In this document: in pieces, positions 2,789-24,920 of the stretch
Layout of the letters: each line of letters begins with the position of its first letter
Numbering within the stretch: position 1 is the first letter of the stretch
Assembly: GCA_025352885.1 (NCBI GenBank)
Contig: JANXRZ010000091.1
Coordinates: 1-64,000, forward strand
Reading direction: 5' to 3'
From: Pseudomonadota bacterium
GTDB lineage: Bacteria > Pseudomonadota > Gammaproteobacteria > Burkholderiales > SG8-39
Length of the DNA: 64,000 nucleotides
Translations under genes and position numbers: made by a program
The notes under the pieces: generated by a model
What the model saw: only the letters and a program-made list of their open reading frames with translations
Told to the model about the DNA's origin: nothing
Databases searched by the model: none

Positions 2789-3969
2789 CAGATGATTCCT
2801 TTCGATTTGAAGGTGTCGATATCGCCCGCCGAATAGCCGGCTTCGCGCAGCACTTCCTCGCAGTGCTCGCCGCGCTCGGGCGAGGCGCTCGCAAGCGAGG
2901 CGGGCGTGCGGGAGAGCTTCACGGCCTGGCCGAGCAGGTACAGCGTGCCAAGGCGCGGGTGTTCGACGGGGGTGGCGACGCCCAGGTGCTTCACCTGCGG
3001 GTCGGCGAAGACCTGGTCCATGGTGTAGATCGGGCCGCAGGGCACGCCGGCTTCGTTCAGGATCTCGACCCACTCGGCGCTCGTTTTCGAGAGCAGCGTC
3101 TTGTCGATCTCCGCGTTGAGCGGCTTGCGGTTCTTCGCGCGCAACGGCGCGTCCTTGTAATCGGGATGCTCGAGCAGGTCCGGGCGCTTGATCGCCTCGC
3201 ACAGGCGCAGCCAGATTGCCTTGCCGGCCGCGGCGACGTTCATGTAGCCGTCGGCGGTCGTGTACGCGGAGGTCGGCATGCTGGTTGGGTGATCATTGCC
3301 TACCTGCTCGGCGACTTCTTTCGACATCGTGTAGCGCGCGGCCTGGAAATCGAGCTGCTGGATGCCGGCCTGCAGCAGATTGGATTGCACCCACTGGCCT
3401 TCGCCCGAGGTTTCGCGCTCGAGGAGAGCCGTCATGATGCCGAGCGCTGCCATGAGGCCCGCGGTTACGTCGGCCACGGCGGCGCCTACGCGCATCGGAC
3501 CTTTGCCCGGCGCGCCGGTCACCGACATGATTCCGCAGAGGCCCTGCGCGATCTGGTCGAAGCCGGGGCGCTTCGCATACGGACCGTCCTGGCCGAAGCC
3601 CGAGATGCTCGCGAGGATCACGCGCTTGTTCACCGCCTTCAGTGATTCGTAGTCGATGCCCAGGCGGAACTTGACGTCGGGGCGATAGTTTTCCACGACG
3701 ACGTCCGCGGTCTTCACGAGCTTCATGAAGATCGCCTTGCCTTCGGGCGCCTTGAGGTTCAGCGTGATCGAGCGCTTGTTGCGGTGCAGGTTCTGGAAAT
3801 CCGGGCCGTCGCGCGCGCCGCCCATGTCTTCGGGCTCGGTGTTTTCCACCTTGACGACATCGGCGCCGAAATCGGCGAACTGCTTAACGCAGGTCGGGCC
3901 CGCACGCACGCGCGTGAGGTCGAGGATGCGCAGCTTGGATAAGGCGGGGGAGGCAGTGATCCGGGGCAT
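2788..3969 (-). CDS. CaiB/BaiF (family III) CoA-transferase
   Basis: First gene of the operon, 393 residues, the usual size for class III CoA-transferases. The N-terminal Rossmann half shows FADFGADVVKVE and the NKRSITLNL segment that binds CoA. In formyl-CoA transferase the nucleophilic Asp169 lies in the segment after a GQ pair; here that segment reads GQWVQSNLLQA, and the aligned position is Gln200 by eye. The same replacement occurs, as I recall, in a subfamily with the following LDFQAARY motif, so it may be a genuine subfamily trait rather than decay. Predicted role: activates a carboxylic acid, delivered via the adjacent Bug receptor, as its CoA thioester for the crotonase-fold protein and SDR. 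The substrate cannot be read from sequence. Confidence 0.9.
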   Translation of the reverse strand: MPRITASPALSKLRILDLTRVRAGPTCVKQFADFGADVVKVENTEPEDMGGARDGPDFQNLHRNKRSITLNLKAPEGKAIFMKLVKTADVVVENYRPDVKFRLGIDYESLKAVNKRVILASISGFGQDGPYAKRPGFDQIAQGLCGIMSVTGAPGKGPMRVGAAVADVTAGLMAALGIMTALLERETSGEGQWVQSNLLQAGIQQLDFQAARYTMSKEVAEQVGNDHPTSMPTSAYTTADGYMNVAAAGKAIWLRLCEAIKRPDLLEHPDYKDAPLRAKNRKPLNAEIDKTLLSKTSAEWVEILNEAGVPCGPIYTMDQVFADPQVKHLGVATPVEHPRLGTLYLLGQAVKLSRTPASLASASPERGEHCEEVLREAGYSAGDIDTFKSKGII

Positions 3970-4011
3970 GGCCGTTGGAAGGAAATGCGGGATGCGAAGC
4001 GTAACCCAAAA

Positions 4012-4024
4012 GGGGCCAGGCTCG
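4012..4024. repeat. Solo arm of the REPIN-like repeat
   Basis: The 13-mer GGGGCCAGGCTCG, preceded by AAAA as in the full elements, occurs once in the gap between the formyltransferase stop and the CoA-transferase start. It matches the inner arm of the elements at 23071-23258 and 58438-58600 exactly. No inverted partner follows within 60 nt; instead there is a short hairpin, TTTCGC-TGT-GCGAAA, just downstream. It looks like a half or decayed copy. Confidence 0.7.
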
Positions 4025-4058
4025 ATTGTTTCGCTGTGCGAAAAGCAGCCTTGGGGAC

Positions 4059-4874
4059 CTAGCCGTCACCCACTCCGAATTGCCCCAGCAGGTCGTTCAC
4101 GTCACTGCGATCGAAGAGCCGCCACCCCGACGCGGTGAACGCGACAAGGTCCTCGTCGGTGGGAAAGGAAAAATACGCACCGTCATCCGCCCGCTGCGGT
4201 TTCCCCGGCAACGTCTCTCCGGCCGCGATGTTCGCAATTGCCCGCGCGACCATCGCCGCGCCGATTGGGTAGAGCGAAAGGATGTGCCAGAACAGTGACC
4301 GACTGCGATCGACTTCGAGCGTCCCGATCTCGATAACCGGCCCGGTATCGATCGACGGCTGGTCGATCCGGTGAAGTGTGCAGCCGATTTTCGAGTCGCC
4401 GTTCATGAGTGCCCGAAACGATGCCAGCACGCCCCGATACGAAGGCAGGATGCCCGAATGCAAGTTGATCACACCGAGCCGGGGCAGGGCGATCGCCTCG
4501 GCGCCGAGAATCTTGCCGAAGCGGATCGACACGAAAAGATCCGCGCCCGGAACGGCCAGGGCCTCCAGCGCCTCGGGGGTGCGCGCGCTGGCCAACGACA
4601 TGATCTTGAAACCGAACCGGCGCTGTAAGCCATTCAGGGACTGATAACGCGCTGGACGCACATTCGCATCCAGCGCGGGAAACACGACGCGATTCCACAA
4701 GTCCTGCTCGACGAAGCCAAGCTGGCCCAGCATCGCTGCGGGCTTTGGGCCTTTCGGTCCACCCACTTGTCCGGACACGAACACCGATACCTCGTGCGCC
4801 GCGAGCCGTGGGAGAAGCAGGTTCAGAGCGAGGACGCTCTCGATGTCGCGGTTGACGAGGAGCGCGATGCGCAT
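4059..4874 (-). CDS. Formyltransferase-family protein
   Basis: A 271-residue protein with a formyl_trans_N-type fold. The catalytic triad of 10-formyl-THF-dependent transferases appears intact: Asn137 and His139 in INLHSGILPSYRG and Asp176 in IDTGPVI. It lacks the C-terminal tRNA-binding domain of methionyl-tRNA formyltransferase, so it is not Fmt. Stand-alone members N-formylate amino sugars or small amines in cell-surface polysaccharide or secondary-metabolite pathways. It starts 30 nt after the stop of a TPR protein on the same strand and probably shares its transcript. The acceptor substrate is unknown. Confidence 0.85.
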   Translation of the reverse strand: MRIALLVNRDIESVLALNLLLPRLAAHEVSVFVSGQVGGPKGPKPAAMLGQLGFVEQDLWNRVVFPALDANVRPARYQSLNGLQRRFGFKIMSLASARTPEALEALAVPGADLFVSIRFGKILGAEAIALPRLGVINLHSGILPSYRGVLASFRALMNGDSKIGCTLHRIDQPSIDTGPVIEIGTLEVDRSRSLFWHILSLYPIGAAMVARAIANIAAGETLPGKPQRADDGAYFSFPTDEDLVAFTASGWRLFDRSDVNDLLGQFGVGDG

Positions 4875-9866: not shown

Positions 9867-11225
9867 TCAGGCGGCGGGTTGGGCGACCCCTGAGGCGCGG
9901 CCTCGCACGAGCGCTATGTGGCTGCGAAGCGAGTACAGTTCATCGGCATAGGACAAGGGCACGCTCACGCGCTCGACCTTTGCGTCGAGCTTGTCCAGCT
10001 CGTCCAAGAGCCGCACTGCCGGCGTTTTCCCCGAAGACAAGCTCGTCTCGATCTGGCGCAACTGGCGATACCACGTGAAGATGCGGGAGCGGATGCGGAA
10101 GTTATAGAGCGGCGGCACGACCCGCCCCAGCGGGATCAGGATCGCAACGATGGAAATGAGCACCACCCACATGCGCTCGATCAGGTTGGCCAACCAGAAG
10201 GGCAGGTACCGCTGCATCAGCGGCGGCCCGTTCTTGAAGTAGCGCTGTGCTTCGGGCGCGAGCGGGAATTCCACGTCTTCCTTGGACGGGAACTGGCCGG
10301 TGCGCGCGAACCACCCCGGATCCGAGTGGATGTCGTGGGCGGCCTGCACGAAGAGCTGCATGAGGGCGGGGTGCGTTCCTTCGCGCGCGACCAGCATCGA
10401 CGTCGGCGCCACGAGCGCGATGTTCCTTGGCGGGATGTCGTGCGAGAGGTCTGCGACGCCGCGCGGCAGCGTGACAGCCGAGAGGTAACCCAGGCGCCGC
10501 GTATACGCTTCGGCCTGGGTGAATTCGAACAGCGTGATGCCCGGCGTCCTCAGCAGCATCTGCAGGATCGGCGACTCGGGCGCCGACACCATGACGAGGG
10601 CATCGAGTTCCTTGTTGAATAGGGCGATCGCCGCGTGCGTCTGGTCCTGGCGGTCGAACACAAGGTCTTCGCGCTCGACGCCGTTGGCGCGCAGCAGCTT
10701 GCCGAAAAGATTCGCCGAACCTGCGCCGCGCGCGCCCGCATTCACCCGCCAGCCGCGCAGCTGGTCAAGGCGCGCGAGGGTCTTGCCCGGAAGCTTTGCG
10801 GCCGCCTCCGTGCGATAGAAAAGCCAAACCGGCTCGAGGAAGAGGCTGCCAAGCGCCACGAGCGGAAGGCCGGTGCCTTTCTCGTCTTCGGCGCGGATGG
10901 CCTCGCTCGACCCGCCCCGCACGAAGCCGAAGTCCACCTTCTCCTTGGGATCGCGCAGCAGCCTGCGGTTGGCGGACGACCCTTCGGTTGCGCGCAGCAC
11001 CACCTCGATGTGGTGGCGCTTGAGCGCTTTCACGTAAAGCTTGGCGAACTCCGCGTAGTCGCTTTGCTCGGGCCCCGTAGCGAGGACCACTTCACGAGGA
11101 GGATTGGGCTGCAGGATGAGATACGCGCCGATGAGGAGCAGCAGCGCGATGAGCGCGAACGGCCCCAATGTGGCCATCACGTCCCGCGCGGACAGCAGCT
11201 TGTCGCGGAAGGCTGCCCGGGTCAT
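9867..11225 (-). CDS. TAXI-family TRAP solute-binding protein, membrane-anchored
   Basis: A 452-residue protein. Residues 20-40 form a membrane segment (FALIALLLLIGAYLIL), followed by a TAXI-type periplasmic binding domain starting at VVLATGPEQSDY and continuing through VDFGFVRGGSS to about residue 330. A second membrane helix follows around 350-372 (WVVLISIVAILIPLG), then a C-terminal tail with coiled-coil character. TAXI proteins normally deliver glutamate- or dicarboxylate-like solutes to a fused TRAP permease; no permease gene is adjacent. The two-helix anchoring suggests a fixed sensor or receptor rather than a diffusible one. It starts 20 nt after the upstream Bug receptor stop and may be co-transcribed. 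Confidence 0.85.
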   Translation of the reverse strand: MTRAAFRDKLLSARDVMATLGPFALIALLLLIGAYLILQPNPPREVVLATGPEQSDYAEFAKLYVKALKRHHIEVVLRATEGSSANRRLLRDPKEKVDFGFVRGGSSEAIRAEDEKGTGLPLVALGSLFLEPVWLFYRTEAAAKLPGKTLARLDQLRGWRVNAGARGAGSANLFGKLLRANGVEREDLVFDRQDQTHAAIALFNKELDALVMVSAPESPILQMLLRTPGITLFEFTQAEAYTRRLGYLSAVTLPRGVADLSHDIPPRNIALVAPTSMLVAREGTHPALMQLFVQAAHDIHSDPGWFARTGQFPSKEDVEFPLAPEAQRYFKNGPPLMQRYLPFWLANLIERMWVVLISIVAILIPLGRVVPPLYNFRIRSRIFTWYRQLRQIETSLSSGKTPAVRLLDELDKLDAKVERVSVPLSYADELYSLRSHIALVRGRASGVAQPAA

Positions 11226-12323: not shown

Positions 12324-14256
<1,933 letters not shown>

Positions 14257-18446: not shown

Positions 18447-18869
18447 ATGCGCAGACCCGTACGCGACGGCTTGGCACTGGCGATCCTGCTTTTCCTGACG
18501 CTCGGAATCGGCGTGCTCGATTGCGCCGTGGGACGCAATGTCAGCTTGTGGTTCGTGTACGTGCTGCCTATCTGCCTGGCTGCGGCGATCGGCGGGGCGC
18601 GGGCCGGCGTTGCCTTCTCAGCGCTGGCGGCGGGCCTGCTCCTCTTTGTCGGATTCGACGGCGGGCATCCGTTTCCCGCAATGGGCTATTTCCTCTTCGA
18701 AGTCTTCGGTGACTTCTTCGTCTATCTGCTGATCGTTGTGCTTTCGCTCGGCGTGCGCGAGCAGCTGCACAAGGGACTGGGCGAACTGCTGCCTTCGCAC
18801 GCGGCCACTCAGGAACTGCAGCGTGTCGTCGCCCGCCAGCGCGAGAACCCGGGCGCCCGCCTGAACTAG
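18447..18869 (+). CDS. Membrane protein resembling a sensor-kinase N-terminal domain
   Basis: A 140-residue protein with about four transmembrane helices and a C-terminal amphipathic tail. The first two helices carry a pattern (FVYVLPICLAAAIGGARAG) that I know from the membrane sensory part of diguanylate cyclases and histidine kinases. Here no signalling domain follows, so it is a free-standing sensor-like membrane domain. ATG 18447 is chosen for its AAGGAA box 7 nt upstream. It ends 4 nt into the convergent ACMSD-like gene. Function unknown. Confidence 0.7.
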   Translation: MRRPVRDGLALAILLFLTLGIGVLDCAVGRNVSLWFVYVLPICLAAAIGGARAGVAFSALAAGLLLFVGFDGGHPFPAMGYFLFEVFGDFFVYLLIVVLSLGVREQLHKGLGELLPSHAATQELQRVVARQRENPGARLN

Positions 18870-19882
18870 AGCCGCAGCAGCCGCCGCGCGTTCCCTTCGA
18901 GGATCGCGAGCCGGTCACCGGCTGCAATCAGCGGATTGTTCACGACGACTTCGACGGGCTGCTCGTAGGCCACCGGGAAGCAGTAGTCGCTGCCCATCAG
19001 GATCCGGTCCGCGCCGACGTTCTTGATGAGGTACTCGACCACCGTGTCCGAGTAGCCGATCGTGTCGTAGTGAAACCGACGCAGGTACTCGAGCGGGCTC
19101 GATTTGATGTGCTGCAGGTCGGCGCGTTTTTGCCAGCCGCGATTGAGGCGACCGACCAGCCAAGGAAAAGCGCCGCCCGCATGCGGCAGCACGATGTCGA
19201 GCTTCGGGAAGCGATCGAGCACGCCGCCGAAAATCAGGTGCGCGGCAGCGATTGCCGACTCGAAAGGATTGCCGAGGAGGTTTGTGAGGTAGTGCTTCTC
19301 CAATCTCTCGTGGCCGATCACGAAGACCGGGTGAAGAAGGATCGGCAGTCCGAGCGCTTCGATTGCCTCGTAGACCGGGAAGAAAGAGGGATCCGAGAGT
19401 TCCTTGTCGTTGACGCGCGTGGCCAGGTAGAAGCCGCGCACGCCGGGGAGCTTTGAGGCTCGCGCAACCTCCTTGACGGCGAGATCGGGCGCCTGCATCG
19501 GCAGGGTCGCAAGGCCTATCAGTCTGCCGGGATGGGCGCCATGGGCTCGGGCGAGCTCATCGTTGTAGACGATCGATAGTCGCTCGCCCAGGTCCCGGTC
19601 GGCCCAATACGCCATCGGCTGGGAAAGCGACATCGCGTGGACGGCCACGCCTTGCTCGTCCATCGCCTGAAGGCGCGCGTCTAGATCCACGTAGCGCGGT
19701 CCCGCCGGGCCGGTGGACAAGTGGCCGATCTTGAACTGGGGCCCCTTGCCTTCGATCTCCTTCCATTCGATGCCGTGCGCCGGACCGTGCTTTGCGACCA
19801 GGTCCAGCCACGCTTGCGGGTACCAGTGCGCGTGAACGTCGATCGGGTTGCCGTGCTTGTGGTCGTGCGGATCGTGGCTCAT
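18866..19882 (-). CDS. Amidohydrolase-2 family decarboxylase, ACMSD-like
   Basis: A 338-residue protein of the ACMSD/gamma-resorcylate decarboxylase branch of the amidohydrolases. Metal ligands: His17 and His19 in DVHAHW, His in LLHPVFV, a further catalytic His in LPHAGGAFP, and Asp in MGSDYCFP. It is divergent, 87 nt apart, from a 3-hydroxyanthranilate dioxygenase, which makes 2-amino-3-carboxymuconate semialdehyde, the ACMSD substrate. That pairing favours an ACMSD (EC 4.1.1.45-type) role. 4-Oxalomesaconate hydratase (LigJ) is the main alternative within the same fold. The AMS dehydrogenase expected next in the pathway is absent. Confidence 0.85.
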   Translation of the reverse strand: MSHDPHDHKHGNPIDVHAHWYPQAWLDLVAKHGPAHGIEWKEIEGKGPQFKIGHLSTGPAGPRYVDLDARLQAMDEQGVAVHAMSLSQPMAYWADRDLGERLSIVYNDELARAHGAHPGRLIGLATLPMQAPDLAVKEVARASKLPGVRGFYLATRVNDKELSDPSFFPVYEAIEALGLPILLHPVFVIGHERLEKHYLTNLLGNPFESAIAAAHLIFGGVLDRFPKLDIVLPHAGGAFPWLVGRLNRGWQKRADLQHIKSSPLEYLRRFHYDTIGYSDTVVEYLIKNVGADRILMGSDYCFPVAYEQPVEVVVNNPLIAAGDRLAILEGNARRLLRL

Positions 19883-19969
19883 GGGGGCGGCGGTTTCGCT
19901 GGGGTGCTGCAGATCATATTCGAACTCGCGTAAGATTCAGCGGACACTTTCGCTAGATGGAGCGAGCGC

Positions 19970-20488
19970 ATGGACCCGATGCCGATCGTGGATCTTTCCG
20001 ACACCGCCAGGAAGCTGGGCGAGAGCGGCAAGCGTGTGAACGTGCTCTGGCAGGAGCCGGACTCGCTTGCCTTCGTGGCCCGCGGCCGCGAGTACCGCAG
20101 CGAGTTCCACCTGAATCCGAGCGAAGAGCTCATGTACCAGATCAAGGGCGAGATGCGCCTGCACTACCGCACGCCCGAGGGGAAGGAAGAGGTGGCGGTC
20201 ATCAAGGAAGGCTCGGTGATCCATACACCGGCCGGCGTGCCGCATTCGCCCCGCTTCCCGCCCGATGCCTATGCGCTCATCGTCGAAAGGAAACGCCGCC
20301 CCGGCGAGATCGACCGCTTTCACTGGTACTGCCGCAAGTGCGACGGTTTCCTGCACGAGGAGACTTTCGTGGTTTCGGACTACACGCAGGACCCGGTGTC
20401 GAAAGCCTATAAGAACTTCTTCGACAGCGAAGCGTTCCGTACCTGCGAGAAATGCGGCGACGTGTTGCCCGCGCCGGAGACGATGTAG
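19970..20488 (+). CDS. 3-hydroxyanthranilate 3,4-dioxygenase
   Basis: A 172-residue cupin dioxygenase with the length of the bacterial HAO/NbaC group. Iron ligands His47, Glu53 and His92 and the substrate-pocket Arg43 and Glu106 align with the Ralstonia metallidurans enzyme. The C-terminal rubredoxin-like site is present as Cys121-x2-Cys124 and Cys159-x2-Cys162. It cleaves 3-hydroxyanthranilate to 2-amino-3-carboxymuconate semialdehyde, the branch from tryptophan, nitrobenzoate or anthranilate derivatives. It opens a plus-strand run with RidA (2 nt gap), creatininase and LigA/LigB genes. The start follows a GGAG-type box. Confidence 0.95.
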   Translation: MDPMPIVDLSDTARKLGESGKRVNVLWQEPDSLAFVARGREYRSEFHLNPSEELMYQIKGEMRLHYRTPEGKEEVAVIKEGSVIHTPAGVPHSPRFPPDAYALIVERKRRPGEIDRFHWYCRKCDGFLHEETFVVSDYTQDPVSKAYKNFFDSEAFRTCEKCGDVLPAPETM

Positions 20489-20490
20489 CC

Positions 20491-20895
20491 ATGCCGAAAA
20501 TCCTCGTCCAGTCTGCCAAGGCGCCGGTCACTGGGTTCACCGATGCAGGCACGCCTTCGCCGCTTGCGCAAGCGATTCGCGCAGGGGACTTCCTCTACGT
20601 GTCCGGGCAGGGGCCGCTCGATCCGCTGACCAAGAAAGTGGTGTCCGAAGACATCAAGGAACAAACGCGGCAGACGCTCGCCAACCTCGTCGAGATCCTG
20701 CAGGCGGGAGGCGCAACGCTTGCGAACGTCGTGAACATGCGCGTATGCCTGCGCAACACCGGCGATTTCGCCGCATTCAACGAGACCTTCCGTGAATTCA
20801 TGCAGGGCGAGAAAGTGACGCGCACCTGTACCGGCGGCACGCCACATCGCGCGGGCGTGAATGTCGAGATCGATTGCGTGGCGTACCTTGGGTAG
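20491..20895 (+). CDS. RidA-family protein, possible 2-aminomuconate deaminase
   Basis: A 134-residue RidA/YjgF-type protein (VSGQGPLDP, QTRQTLANLVEIL). 2-Aminomuconate deaminases of nitrobenzene and nitrobenzoate pathways (AmnD/NbaF type) belong to this family and occur next to 3-hydroxyanthranilate dioxygenase and ACMSD genes. The position here, 2 nt after the dioxygenase stop, fits that role: deaminating 2-aminomuconate to 4-oxalocrotonate. A general reactive-enamine deaminase is the alternative. The catalytic Arg of RidA proteins is Arg105 by family position, in the CTGGTPHRAG neighbourhood, but was not verified. Confidence 0.85.
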   Translation: MPKILVQSAKAPVTGFTDAGTPSPLAQAIRAGDFLYVSGQGPLDPLTKKVVSEDIKEQTRQTLANLVEILQAGGATLANVVNMRVCLRNTGDFAAFNETFREFMQGEKVTRTCTGGTPHRAGVNVEIDCVAYLG

Positions 20896-20916
20896 CAGTT
20901 GAAAAAAGGGGAGAGC

Positions 20917-21861
20917 ATGAACAGGACAAGGCATTCAATCGCAGGTGTGGCTTTCATGATCGCGATGATCGCGGCCGGTTCGGCAAGCGGGCAGGGCCGC
21001 GTGTCGGAGGGCGGGTATTCGATCTTCAACGAGACCATGGTCGACCTGAACTACCAGCAGGTCGAGGAGGCCGCAAAAGCCGGGGCCATTCTCCTCTGGC
21101 CCCTCGGCGTGATCGAAGAGCATGGGCCCCACTTGCCGTTGGGGACGGATATCTACAATTCCTACGCGACGATGAAGCAGGTCGCGCGGTTGCTCAGGGC
21201 CAAGGGGCAGCAGGTGCTCATCGCGCCGCCCATGTACTGGGGCATCAACGACGCCACGGGTGCCTTCGGCGGATCCTTCAGCGTCAAGCCCTCGACGCTC
21301 AAAGCGATCATCGAGGACACCTTCGCGAGCTTTCGCAAGGACGGGTTCCAGTCGGTCTACATCATCACCGGCCATGGAGACCGGCTGCACAACCTCACGA
21401 TTGTCGAAGGCGTGGAGGCCGCGCGATCCAGTACCGGCATGCGCGGCTTTGTCGTGCTTGCCCCGGTCATGCGCGACCGGCTCGGCCTCAAAGGCACCGA
21501 AGGGCACGTGGTCGTGACTGATGCGCCCGCGGCGGGGGCCGCGCTCTCCGCAGCGCCGCGGTACATCGAGGTCCATGCCGGCGCAGGCGAGACCTCGGCT
21601 ACCTGGTTCAACTTTCCGGCTCTCGTGAACGGGCCGCTGGCCGCGTCGCTGCCGGATACGAAATTCGGTCCCGACGACCTTGCCGAGTGGCGCAAGGGCT
21701 GGGACAACGCGCGGACAAAGACGCCCCTCGGGTATCTGGGAGATCCGTCGACCTCCAGTGCAGAACGCGGGGGCGCGGCGTTCCATGACGGCGCCCAGCG
21801 GCTTGCTAATACGATCCTGGCCCATGTCGCCGCCTCGCCTTGGATGAAACATCGCCCCTAG
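20917..21861 (+). CDS. Creatininase-family protein with signal peptide
   Basis: A 314-residue protein of the creatininase/mycofactocin MftE fold. The metal-binding motif EEHGPHLPLGTD is at about residues 68-79 and the GHGD loop at 155-160 replaces the family's NGHGGN. An N-terminal signal peptide (MNRTRHSIAGVAFMIAMIAAGSASGQ) is unusual, as most family members are cytosolic, so this one is probably periplasmic. ATG 20917 follows AAGGGGAG. It would hydrolyse a cyclic amide or a peptide-like amide; 2,6-dihydroxypseudooxynicotine-like or lactam substrates are conceivable. It lies between RidA and LigA genes. Confidence 0.82.
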   Translation: MNRTRHSIAGVAFMIAMIAAGSASGQGRVSEGGYSIFNETMVDLNYQQVEEAAKAGAILLWPLGVIEEHGPHLPLGTDIYNSYATMKQVARLLRAKGQQVLIAPPMYWGINDATGAFGGSFSVKPSTLKAIIEDTFASFRKDGFQSVYIITGHGDRLHNLTIVEGVEAARSSTGMRGFVVLAPVMRDRLGLKGTEGHVVVTDAPAAGAALSAAPRYIEVHAGAGETSATWFNFPALVNGPLAASLPDTKFGPDDLAEWRKGWDNARTKTPLGYLGDPSTSSAERGGAAFHDGAQRLANTILAHVAASPWMKHRP

Positions 21862-21918
21862 GAGCTCGCATGGAGAATCAGGTGACGCGCAAACGTGCGG
21901 GTGAAAAGGAGATCTGAT

Positions 21919-22224
21919 ATGGGCGTGATGGACACCGACAAGACCCTCCCGACGAACACGCTCATCTTCGAGGTGCGGCGGGACCGCAAGCTCCTCGAGC
22001 GCTTCGCGAAGGACCTCGATGGGCTCATGGCCGACTACGGCCTTTCCGAGGCGGAAAAAAAGGCGTTGCGCGAGATCGACCTGATGGCGCTGTCGAAGAT
22101 GGGCGTGCATCCGTATTTCCTGCCGCAGGTCAGCCGCCTCTTCAAGGGCACCGGCTATAACCACAACGATTCGGCGGCCGCGCAGTTGTATGCGTCGAAA
22201 ATGCTGAACACCGGGAAGGGCTGA
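21919..22224 (+). CDS. LigA-like alpha subunit of extradiol dioxygenase
   Basis: A 101-residue protein with the LigA domain (small alpha-helical subunit of protocatechuate 4,5-dioxygenase): RKLLERFAKDLD, then YGLSEAEKKALREID, and a C-terminal helix. It starts at ATG 21919 behind AAGGAG and its TGA is one nucleotide before the LigB-type gene. The alpha subunit caps the active site of the LigB beta subunit in LigAB. The pair identity as protocatechuate dioxygenase is not certain; gallate, aminophenol and other para-diol substrates are known for this class. Confidence 0.85.
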   Translation: MGVMDTDKTLPTNTLIFEVRRDRKLLERFAKDLDGLMADYGLSEAEKKALREIDLMALSKMGVHPYFLPQVSRLFKGTGYNHNDSAAAQLYASKMLNTGKG

Positions 22225-22225
22225 G

Positions 22226-23059
22226 ATGGCCGAGATTGTTTCAATCCTCGCGCTGGCGCATGCGCCCGGCGCCACAGGCTGGCTCGACAAGGCGCCCAAG
22301 CACGAGCAGGACGGGATCATCAATGGCTATGCGGAGATGAGGAAGCGCCTCGCAGCGGCGAAGCCGGATGTGATCGTCGGCATCGCCAACGACCACCTGC
22401 TCAACTTTCATCCGGGCAACGTGCCGGACTGGTGCGTGGGCATTGCGGATCGTTGGGAGGGTCCGGCCGAGTGGTTCCGAGATTGGGTGAACGTACCGCA
22501 TTATGAAGTGGGCGGCGATCGCGATCTGGGTCGCACCATCGTGCGGGAGTCCGGTAAGCGAGGGATCAATCTCGCGTTCAGCGATTCGCTCCTCTTCGAT
22601 GACAACTGGTCGGTGCCGCTGCATTTCCTGACGCCCGAGCACAACTTGCCGCTAGTGCCCATCCACATGAACTGCGTCCTGCCGCCTATGCCGACGACGC
22701 AGCGGTGCTACGAATTTGGCAAAGTGCTGGCCGAGGTGATTCGCGCGTGGCCGGAAAAGAAGCGCGTCGCGATCATGGCTACGGGCGGGCTCTCGCACGA
22801 TCCGGGCGGTCCAAAATATTTCGGCGTGGACGAACCTTTCGACCGCGGCTTCCTTGCGCTGCTCGGCGAAGGCAATCCGGAAAAAGTGCTGCGGGAAGTG
22901 ACGCCCGAAAAGATGATCGCAGCAGGCGACGGCGGCACAATCGAGCTGCTCGCCTGGTTCGTCGCAATGGGCGCCGCGGGCAATCGCAAAGCCGACACCG
23001 CCTTTTACGTTCCTTCCGTTCCCCTTCGGTGCGGCATGGGCGGCGTCACCTGGATGTAA
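22226..23059 (+). CDS. LigB-type extradiol ring-cleavage dioxygenase (beta subunit)
   Basis: A 277-residue class III extradiol dioxygenase. The N-terminal SILALAHAPG contains the iron-ligand His region (His12 type in LigB), IVGIANDHLLNF carries the second His, and MATGGLSHDPGG is the family signature with the catalytic His. Length matches LigB of LigAB. With the adjacent alpha subunit it probably cleaves a catechol or aminophenol ring in meta fashion. If protocatechuate is the substrate it would continue from the distant pobA (12324-13514). Two repeat-element arms follow its stop. Confidence 0.88.
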   Translation: MAEIVSILALAHAPGATGWLDKAPKHEQDGIINGYAEMRKRLAAAKPDVIVGIANDHLLNFHPGNVPDWCVGIADRWEGPAEWFRDWVNVPHYEVGGDRDLGRTIVRESGKRGINLAFSDSLLFDDNWSVPLHFLTPEHNLPLVPIHMNCVLPPMPTTQRCYEFGKVLAEVIRAWPEKKRVAIMATGGLSHDPGGPKYFGVDEPFDRGFLALLGEGNPEKVLREVTPEKMIAAGDGGTIELLAWFVAMGAAGNRKADTAFYVPSVPLRCGMGGVTWM

Positions 23060-23070
23060 TCGGTGTAATC

Positions 23071-23258
23071 GGGGCCAGGCTCAACCTTGACGGGGCCAGG
23101 CTCAAACCTGACAAAAAGGGGCCAGGCTCGCCTTTTTGTTAGATCGAGATCAACAGGGAAGCCAAACCGTTTCGTGGAAAGAAATCGAGCCCGGCCCCTT
23201 TTTGTCAGGTTTGAGCCTGGCCCCTTTTTGTCAGGAAAGTCGACTCTGACCCGACTTT
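23071..23258. repeat. REPIN-like inverted repeat element with 55-nt core
   Basis: Three direct arms, GGGGCCAGGCTCAA at 23071 and 23092, GGGGCCAGGCTCG at 23118, are followed by a 55-nt unrelated core (23131-23185) and the reverse complements CGAGCCCGGCCCC at 23186 and GGTTTGAGCCTGGCCCC ending near 23224. The linker CTGACAAAAA separates arms on both sides. The right end is a second small palindrome, AAAGTCG-N9-CGACTTT (23236-23258). The element lies between the convergent LigB and amidohydrolase genes and supplies the last 17 codons of the latter. An almost identical copy is at 58438-58600. As RNA it would form a long hairpin; a dual terminator role is possible. No RAYT transposase is in the window. 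Confidence 0.85.
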
Positions 23259-24920
23259 CTGGAACACGACCTGGCCGCCGGCGATGGTGAGAGCTGGGGC
23301 GACGTGCGGAAGGCGGTAAGCGTCCATCGCGAGCGGATTTTCGTCGAGCACGATCATGTCCGCGAGCTTGCCGGGCTCGAGCGTCCCGCGCTGGTGCTCT
23401 TCCATGCAGAGGTAGGCGCCGCTCACGGTCGCGCAGCGGAGTGCTTCTTCGCGCGTGATTCGTTGGCCCGGCGCAACTACAGACGCGGTGTCGCGATCGA
23501 GGCGCTCGACGGCCTGCCAGATGCAGGGCCATAGCGAGATAGGCACGTTGTCGGTAGCGAGAGACACCGTTACGCCTGCATCGAGCAATGAGCGGATCGG
23601 GCAAAGCCTGTCCGTCTTGTCCGGCCCGAGGCCTCGCGCAATCGCAGAGGCTTTCTTCCAGATGTACGCGTTGGTATGCGTCGTGACCACGATGCCGTGC
23701 TCGCGCAAGCGTGAAACCTGGCCTGCATCGATTGTGATCGGATGCGCGATGACCCAGCGCAGGTCCGCGATCGGCGATTCGCGCGCGGCTTCTTCATACA
23801 ACTCGAGGTTCTCCATCTGGATCGAGCACACGCGGAGCTTTTCACGCGCTGCCGCCTTCACGAGGACCAGCAGCTTGTCGCGCGGCAGCGTGCAGTCGTA
23901 GTTGAAGCCCGCCCATCCCGTTTGCGGAGCGCACAGGGCACGCATGCGCGCCTCCTCGGGCCGGGAATCCATCTCAGCGTAAACGCCGGCCAAGCGCAGC
24001 CAGTCGTCGCCTGCGCCTCGCCCACTAAGCCTGCCTGCCTGTTCAGTTACCCACTTGGCGACGTCCTCTTCACTTGCCCCGCTCCAGCCCGGGCTGAAAG
24101 CAAGCGTGGCCCGCACGGTCTGTCGGTTGTGCGAGCGCAGCGCGCGGTAGGCATCGATTACTTCGGCGGAGACACCGTGGCCCTCGAATACAGAAGTCGT
24201 CCCGCAAGCGTTGTAGAGCTGCATCGAGCGGCCCAGCGTACGCAGGCGATCGTCGGCCGTGAAATGGGGCGCGGTTCGAAACAGCGTGAACTCGGTGATC
24301 GGCTGGTATGCATTGTCGAAGATTCGCCCGGTCGGTTCGCCTTGCCCGTCGACGTCGATCTCCACGAGCGGCGACGGCGCTAGCGTCCCGCACCGGATGC
24401 CGGCCAGCGAAAGCGCCGCAGAGTTGGCGACAGTCAACAATGGCAGCTTGAACGGCCAATATCCCCAGGCGCAGCGGATGAGAATCGGATGGCGAGTCGA
24501 GGCGCGGTCGAGGTCCTGCCGGTCCGGGAGCCGCCCTTCCTCGAACATCGTCTCGTACACGAAGTATTCAGGCGGCTCGCCGAGCGGCATCGTGACGATC
24601 CACTGTCCCGGCGGCGTATCGGCGGCAAGGCGTGCGAGGCGGTCGACCAGTTCGCGGATCGACCGGCAGCCGGACATCGAAGGCAACACTTCCTTCAACC
24701 CTTCGCGGTCGAGATGCGCGTGGCCATCGGTAAGGCCGGGCATCAACGTGCGGCCCGCGAGCTCGATCACTTTGGTCGAGGCGCCGATCAGCGAAGAAAC
24801 CTCGGCGTCGGTCCCCATTGCGCGAATGCGGTCGCCCTCTACCGCTACTGCCGTCGCCTCGCCTGTGCCGGCAAGCGTCAGCACCGTTCCGCCGCGCAGG
24901 ACGAGATCCGCCGTCGACAT
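23205..24920 (-). CDS. YtcJ-type amidohydrolase (amidohydrolase family 3)
   Basis: A 571-residue amidohydrolase of the PF07969 group. Metal-site motifs: DGHAHL near the N-terminus, RWVIAHPITID in the middle, SLATDNVP toward the C-terminus. Substrates of this group are N-acyl or N-formyl compounds and imides. The last gene of a minus-strand operon with crotonase, acyl-CoA ligase and two Bug receptors; the ATG is 15 nt after the Bug stop. The C-terminal 17 residues (after VVFQ) are encoded by the repeat element at 23071-23258, so the native C-terminus has been replaced or extended by repeat-derived sequence. Confidence 0.88.
   Translation of the reverse strand: MSTADLVLRGGTVLTLAGTGEATAVAVEGDRIRAMGTDAEVSSLIGASTKVIELAGRTLMPGLTDGHAHLDREGLKEVLPSMSGCRSIRELVDRLARLAADTPPGQWIVTMPLGEPPEYFVYETMFEEGRLPDRQDLDRASTRHPILIRCAWGYWPFKLPLLTVANSAALSLAGIRCGTLAPSPLVEIDVDGQGEPTGRIFDNAYQPITEFTLFRTAPHFTADDRLRTLGRSMQLYNACGTTSVFEGHGVSAEVIDAYRALRSHNRQTVRATLAFSPGWSGASEEDVAKWVTEQAGRLSGRGAGDDWLRLAGVYAEMDSRPEEARMRALCAPQTGWAGFNYDCTLPRDKLLVLVKAAAREKLRVCSIQMENLELYEEAARESPIADLRWVIAHPITIDAGQVSRLREHGIVVTTHTNAYIWKKASAIARGLGPDKTDRLCPIRSLLDAGVTVSLATDNVPISLWPCIWQAVERLDRDTASVVAPGQRITREEALRCATVSGAYLCMEEHQRGTLEPGKLADMIVLDENPLAMDAYRLPHVAPALTIAGGQVVFQKVGSESTFLTKRGQAQT

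Follow-up and report, generated by a model that had tools for sequence, protein, structure and literature searches.

The meta pathway of 3-hydroxyanthranilate (3-HAA) relies on the dioxygenase HAO (NbaC), the decarboxylase ACMSD (NbaD) and NbaF. In HAO, Arg47 and Arg99 presumably hold the carboxylate of 3-HAA. In ACMSD, the two ligand carboxylates are bound by Arg51 and Arg239, in a malonate complex as well as with docked ACMS (PMC11650718). For Bordetella sp. 10d, passages of PMC4539516 and PMC6449761 describe the degradation of 4-amino-3-hydroxybenzoate as ring cleavage followed by deamination and then a hydroxymuconate route; a YjgF/RidA protein deaminates the intermediate 2-amino-5-carboxymuconic 6-semialdehyde (PMC6449761). 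We describe here a block of six genes on contig JANXRZ010000091.1 (assembly GCA_025352885.1, Burkholderiales, SG8-39), within a window of 64,000 nucleotides, i.e., the whole stretch analysed. The block joins relatives of HAO, ACMSD and RidA with a creatininase-family gene and both subunits of a LigA/LigB extradiol dioxygenase. Judging from the residues described below, its HAO-like and ACMSD-like enzymes probably digest a compound other than the 3-HAA suggested by their gene names.

The six reading frames were confirmed at the following positions:

18866..19882, minus strand: ACMSD-like Amidohydro_2 protein of 338 aa (PF04909, 129.6 bits); it keeps the zinc ligands and Arg235 (human numbering) but has no Arg47, the counterpart of Arg51 in P. 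fluorescens
19970..20488, plus strand: HAO-like cupin ring-cleavage dioxygenase of the HSPRF clade, 172 aa (PF06052, 81.2 bits); iron ligands kept
20491..20895, plus strand: RidA-family protein, probable enamine deaminase (PF01042, 89.1 bits)
20917..21861, plus strand: creatininase-family protein with an N-terminal signal-like stretch, called by eye and not by a signal-peptide program (PF02633, 157.9 bits); absent here in the nearest relative, locus L005
21919..22224 (longest frame from 21895), plus strand: LigA, small subunit of a class III extradiol dioxygenase (PF07746, 35.5 bits)
22226..23059, plus strand: LigB, catalytic subunit of a class III extradiol dioxygenase (PF02900, 126.6 bits)

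The ACMSD-like gene is divergent from the five tightly packed plus-strand genes. These five are likely to form an operon, since the RidA ATG lies 2 bases past the HAO-like stop and the LigB ATG 1 base past the LigA stop. Frames, domains and packing agree with the single block drawn in the first-pass annotation. The block is real and its genes co-occur in other genomes above chance. In those genomes gene families were identified by tblastn and by the profile models cited, and the genes of the compared loci (numbered L) were chosen by codon-position G+C. A cluster of open reading frames on the reverse strand of LigB was considered as shadow frames and discarded from the locus comparison.

The HAO-like protein keeps H51, E57 and H95, i.e., the iron ligands, together with R47 and E110. 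It is below both NCBIfam equivalog cut-offs for HAO (135.3 vs. 220 and 124.7 vs. 145.95), and the earlier wording of a complete 3-hydroxyanthranilate dioxygenase is therefore too strong. The motif HSPRF is found in all 33 aligned HAO-like rows (26 distinct, window included). On the contrary, the canonical rows, i.e., 11 from canonical loci (10 distinct) plus the partial sequence of C. metallidurans (CmHAO), have HSPQR (11/12) or HSPLR (1/12). Thus the position of Arg99 is occupied by Phe in the whole HAO-like clade, with an Arg one place earlier (98). In the tree the HSPRF clade (26 rows) and canonical HAO (10 rows) are split with a support of 100/100.

A second arginine is changed in the ACMSD-like clade. 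The zinc ligands (HxH, His, Asp), the active-site His and Arg239 are kept in 37 rows out of 37 (35 distinct), whereas an equivalent of Arg51 is found in none of them and is replaced by Gly, Gln or Pro. ACMSD rows from canonical loci have Arg51 in 8 cases out of 8 (7 distinct); Arg235/239 is present in all 45 rows. From the chemistry, the loss of Arg51 would fit a substrate whose leaving carboxylate stands beside an aldehyde, e.g., 5-carboxy-2-hydroxymuconate-6-semialdehyde. These clades can be told from the canonical ones by a simple sequence rule, the absence of Arg51 and the change of HSPQR to HSPRF.

Co-occurrence was counted across the window's family (98 genomes, 26 genera). Carriers are 21 for the HAO-like gene (E <= 1e-30), 14 for LigB (>=70% identity), 37 for the ACMSD-like gene (>=60%) and 23 for RidA (E <= 1e-45). 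HAO-like and LigB genes are found together in 11 genomes (Fisher p 8e-7), HAO-like and RidA in 18 of 21, HAO-like and ACMSD-like in 21 of 21, LigB and ACMSD-like in 14 of 14; p for the four pairs is from 8e-7 to 2e-12. It must be noticed that these values are inflated by relatedness and that those calculated by genus are safer: HAO-like and LigB in 6 of 26 genera (9 and 8 carriers, p 0.008), HAO-RidA 2e-5, HAO-ACMSD 0.004 and LigB-ACMSD 0.008. In the 11 genomes with both ring-cleavage genes, these are within 2.3 kb start to start (5 genomes), 106 kb apart on the same contig (1) or on different contigs (5). Gene order and orientation vary among L005, L010, L013, L016, L041, L044 and L053, which speaks for a repeated assembly of the same gene set.

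The explanation that we prefer, with a probability of about 0.4, is the following: (i) the HAO-like, RidA and ACMSD-like proteins would together make up an altered meta-cleavage module whose substrate is an amino-hydroxybenzoate other than 3-HAA, the nearest parallel being the 4-amino-3-hydroxybenzoate pathway in Bordetella sp. 10d; (ii) LigAB would be a second ring-opener of the same catabolic network; (iii) the creatininase would be optional. Ring cleavage adjacent to the hydroxyl would fall to the HAO-like iron enzyme; RidA would swap the enamine nitrogen for oxygen, and the ACMSD-like zinc enzyme would remove a carboxylate now located beside the aldehyde instead of beside a second carboxylate. 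LigAB, whose catalytic residues are intact, would open a ring in its turn and both branches may converge on the decarboxylase; at other loci an isochorismatase-family (amide) hydrolase probably acts on what LigAB produces. A carboxylate placed differently from that of 3-HAA would account at the same time for both altered arginines, for RidA as a partner and for the dehydrogenase of hydroxymuconate type found near the decarboxylase in some relatives. A variant aminoaromatic pathway, as proposed in the first-pass annotation, is more likely than the classical one because the substrate arginines are changed and the genes co-occur.

An annotation based on names would predict a 3-HAA dioxygenase and ACMSD, hence the breakdown of tryptophan or anthranilate. 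If the substrate is indeed 4-amino-3-hydroxybenzoate or a relative, the block would matter for what becomes of p-aminobenzoate, folate and nitroaromatic residues in the environment. No paper describing such a cluster was found in the open-access literature, judged by title.

Several points weigh against this explanation. LigB is absent from 10 of the 21 HAO-like genomes, and linkage is not tight: the 20 HAO-like loci of the family contain RidA in 9, LigB in 4 and the ACMSD-like gene in 3 cases; none of 31 ACMSD-orthologue loci contains an HAO-like or LigB gene; and the ACMSD-like gene is inside a LigAB locus only in L005 (among 61) and in the window. The alignment around Arg51 is loose, many rows having Arg or Lys five residues later, and the arginine at motif position 98 possibly still serves the old carboxylate. 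The likeness to Bordetella sp. 10d is drawn from pathway descriptions, not from enzyme sequences, and PMC4539516 describes the decarboxylation there as non-enzymatic. As for the lower pathway, no orthologue of an aminomuconate-type semialdehyde dehydrogenase was found in the own genome (99.84% complete, 5.21% contamination), the best match being 42% identical to the query from L099, though a promiscuous dehydrogenase would escape such a search; the absence announced for the block thus holds genome-wide at orthologue level. Likewise the hydratase of L099 has no close relative in this genome (best 30%), and the dehydrogenase is absent from 27 of the 31 ACMSD-orthologue loci. Finally PobA, the candidate feeder described below, is accounted for by a protocatechuate 3,4-dioxygenase encoded elsewhere in the genome, with both subunits over their cut-offs.

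The LigB of the window has H12 and H57, which are invariant, and H191 and E240, present in all but one of 62 rows; we take these four residues to be catalytic. It is far below every NCBIfam cut-off for protocatechuate dioxygenases (best 137.1 vs. 290). The role of an ordinary protocatechuate dioxygenase is not favoured, because of the protocatechuate 3,4-dioxygenase mentioned above. The motif NDHLLNF of LigB stands where the primer motif of PydA, a 3,4-dihydroxypyridine dioxygenase, reads DDHFENH (PMC3637104), the comparison being limited to primer motifs. Elsewhere in the genome (L004, contig C227), a LigB-like dioxygenase of 355 aa with a C-terminal extension, 33% identical to the LigB of the window and under every NCBIfam cut-off, lies downstream of a TctC gene.

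A single pattern-based scan of a species-genome collection gave 61 LigAB loci, 15 of them shorter than 15 kb, so that the neighbour counts are lower bounds. LigA is found in at least 56, an isochorismatase-family gene in at least 45 (41 within 1.5 kb), a GntR-FCD regulator in at least 23, a HAAT-type binding protein in at least 15, RidA in at least 11, creatininase in at least 10, and an HAO-like gene, a different Amidohydro_2 family and a metallo-beta-lactamase fold in at least 8 each. The carboxymuconolactone-decarboxylase family (at least 7), the hydroxymuconic-semialdehyde-dehydrogenase family (at least 6) and PobA (at least 3) follow. The compact form carried by a Bosea plasmid comprises creatininase, five ABC genes, an FCD regulator, LigA, LigB, isochorismatase and amidohydrolase. 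The canonical HAO query is the best assignment for no match in the 61 loci, and LigAB is absent from the 10 canonical HAO loci. The first-pass annotation had held that a regular separation of LigAB and creatininase from the HAO genes in relatives would speak against a common block. Such a separation is half observed: for LigAB, 53 of the 61 loci hold no HAO-like gene in the part that was fetched, yet co-occurrence at the level of genomes is above chance.

The isochorismatase linked to LigAB is nearest to RutB (131.8 bits) and to biuret hydrolase (108.2), below both cut-offs. No isochorismatase gene is present in the block of the window or in L005; two relatives, 38% and 33% identical to the query, are encoded elsewhere in the own genome. 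The pairing of LigAB with isochorismatase constitutes a second, common ring-cleavage system, for which an amide product can be hypothesized.

RidA, searched with the query 20497-20892, i.e., two residues past the likely ATG, is above the PF01042 cut-off (27.3), and with this shortened query it falls under that of the NCBIfam subfamily TIGR00004 (93.4 vs. 106.25). The creatininase-family protein fails the equivalog TIGR04448 (70 vs. 235). A close homologue (E <= 1e-50) exists in 1 of the 98 family genomes, i.e., the own genome, and in L005 RidA is directly followed by LigA. Creatininase was thus rejected as a defining step and is, in the preferred explanation, an optional accessory hydrolase present as a sporadic copy. 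Its base composition resembles that of its neighbours and gives no sign of a recent foreign origin. The opening of a lactam in the periplasm by this enzyme, as formerly suggested, is unsupported: besides this rarity, creatininases of some other LigAB loci (e.g., L037, L040, L044) start without an evident signal peptide, as judged by eye. The suggestion of an amide-bearing substrate has on the other hand become more thinkable given the isochorismatase and creatininase counts, though not with creatininase as a fixed step.

Additional copies were noticed in the compared loci. HSPRF-type HAO and RidA are also found in Alcaligenaceae (L041, L044). L016 contains two different HSPRF HAO-like genes (3693-4223 and 10221-10709), one of which adjoins an isochorismatase gene. 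In L044 (1149-2305) the longest frames of the HAO-like and isochorismatase genes overlap by ~30 bases; should translation begin at the early start, ring opening and hydrolysis would seem to be coupled. Two HAO-like matches, G712:C4:150018-150524 (75%) and G713:C6:1955-2461 (72%), have one internal stop codon, possibly the end of an upstream frame or the mark of decayed copies. Directly after LigB in L008 (10977-11129), a piece of 51 residues, 53% identical to the ACMSD-like protein, is possibly the remnant of a once complete copy.

Among the 31 ACMSD-orthologue loci of other family genomes, the dehydrogenase is found in 4 (L098-L101), adjoining the ACMSD-like gene or within ~2 kb of it in L098-L100 and ~5 kb away in L101, and the hydratase family in 4 (L099-L101, L110). 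The dehydrogenase of L099 is a 2-hydroxymuconic semialdehyde dehydrogenase equivalog (TIGR03216, 911.4 vs. 693.25 bits) and its hydratase passes the HpaH model (369.5 vs. 351.5). A dehydrogenase of the same family stands beside the HAO-like gene in 1 of 20 loci (L079). Another class III extradiol dioxygenase lies near the ACMSD-like, dehydrogenase and hydratase genes in L099 (12014-12865) and L101 (16638-17489); the L099 copy is HpaD-like (75 bits, cut-off 315.95). It may be a further ring-opening enzyme that supplies this decarboxylase clade.

The genes around the block are listed below; downstream of LigB, the minus strand carries a YtcJ-like amidohydrolase and then TctC-type binding proteins.

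12324..13514, minus strand: PobA, 4-hydroxybenzoate 3-monooxygenase equivalog (TIGR02360, 666.6 bits, cut-off 538.7); its end is ~5.4 kb ahead of the ACMSD-like gene
23205..24920, minus strand: Amidohydro_3 (YtcJ-like) protein; 75% homologue near LigAB in L005 and L008
24936..25976 (longest reading frame), minus strand: TctC-type periplasmic binding protein; 82-84% homologues near LigAB in L005 and L008

PobA is near LigAB in 3 of 61 loci, ~5 to 7 kb off (~7 kb in L008, ~5 kb in L053), i.e., its association with the block is loose. Just past the window (L154, contig C270, 64824-73042), a minus-strand run comprises a CoxL/CoxM/CoxS-like Mo-hydroxylase, a binding protein with a Tat-like start, an isochorismatase, and an ABC ATPase and permease, all named by eye except the isochorismatase, which was identified by search. 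It looks like a system for the uptake and hydroxylation of an N-heterocycle, ~43 kb from LigAB. CoxL-like genes are present in 3 of 61 LigAB loci, 4 of 20 HAO-like loci and none of 10 canonical HAO loci, and such neighbours are thus weak evidence for an N-heterocycle.

That the block encodes a divergent but ordinary 3-HAA pathway (NbaC, NbaD, NbaF) beside unrelated neighbours would agree with the kept residues H51, E57, H95, R47 and E110, with true HAO and ACMSD being the closest solved relatives of the two proteins, and with the window gene being the sole HAO homologue of its genome at E <= 1e-15. It was dropped as the leading explanation because both HAO cut-offs are failed, the motifs are changed (Arg99 to Phe in the whole clade, Arg51 missing) and no close aminomuconate-type dehydrogenase is encoded; LigAB is moreover absent from all 10 canonical HAO loci. 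This pathway is unlikely here. Also doubtful is a single pathway acting on an amide-bearing aromatic or an N-heterocycle. In it, ring opening by LigAB would yield an amide to be cleaved by a hydrolase of the isochorismatase or creatininase type, and the HAO-like protein and RidA would handle an aminophenol-like ring or enamine of this route. The frequent isochorismatase neighbours of LigAB, their proximity to RutB and biuret hydrolase in spite of sub-threshold scores, the Mo-hydroxylase operon of the same contig, and a more distant LigAB relative accompanied by Mo-hydroxylase and FAD monooxygenase genes all point to it. They must be set against the lack of isochorismatase in the block and in L005, the rarity of CoxL-like genes, and the low identity (36-47% among the matches listed) of the own isochorismatase to those linked to LigAB. 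A broader version is also improbable, i.e., an unrecognised pathway spread over both Burkholderiales and alphaproteobacteria, where LigAB and an HAO-type cupin whose carboxylate anchor has been relocated would work in a common route that degrades an amide-bearing aminophenol acid or an N-heterocycle, nitrogen being released by RidA and the isochorismatase- or creatininase-type hydrolases.

The gene order and enzymes of the Paenibacillus pra pathway are the model for parallel oxygen and amino branches. Both protocatechuate and 4-amino-3-hydroxybenzoate would come from PobA. LigAB would act as a protocatechuate 2,3-dioxygenase, and its product and that of the HAO-like protein with RidA would be the same 5-carboxy-2-hydroxymuconate-6-semialdehyde, to be decarboxylated by the ACMSD-like enzyme. 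PraA is a protocatechuate 2,3-dioxygenase according to PMC7814577, and PobA-type enzymes can hydroxylate 4-aminobenzoate according to PMC10466732. The presence of the ACMSD-like gene in all 14 LigB genomes and the position of PobA in L008 and L053 would fit such branches. Nevertheless they are very unlikely, given the protocatechuate 3,4-dioxygenase of the own genome, the few PobA genes near LigAB, the low scores of LigB against protocatechuate dioxygenase models, and the link with isochorismatase, which they leave unexplained.

The comparison of the block with the known systems leads to the following picture. With HAO (NbaC; TIGR03037, PRK13264), the HAO-like protein shares the cupin family, iron ligands, R47, E110 and C-terminal Cys pairs; it differs by HSPRF in place of HSPQR, by scores under both cut-offs and by a clade of its own. 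With ACMSD (NbaD), the ACMSD-like protein shares Amidohydro_2, the zinc ligands and the second-subunit arginine (235/239), while Arg47/Arg51 is gone across the clade examined and no NCBIfam model matches at E <= 0.01. LigAB has the two subunits and the His/His/His/Glu catalytic pattern of protocatechuate 4,5-dioxygenase and other class III extradiol dioxygenases; on the contrary it reaches 74.8 bits to 1b4u, remains under the NCBIfam cut-offs and has isochorismatase-linked relatives. The creatininase-family protein has in common with creatininase, MftE and IolN the PF02633 domain, and differs by its low equivalog score and signal-like N-terminus. Finally, the module proposed here would share with the Bordetella sp. 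10d pathway, as the cited passages describe it, a direct ring cleavage of an amino-hydroxybenzoate, a RidA/YjgF-type deaminase, the loss of CO2 and a 2-hydroxymuconate route; decarboxylation is reportedly spontaneous in Bordetella, and these passages mention neither LigAB nor creatininase.

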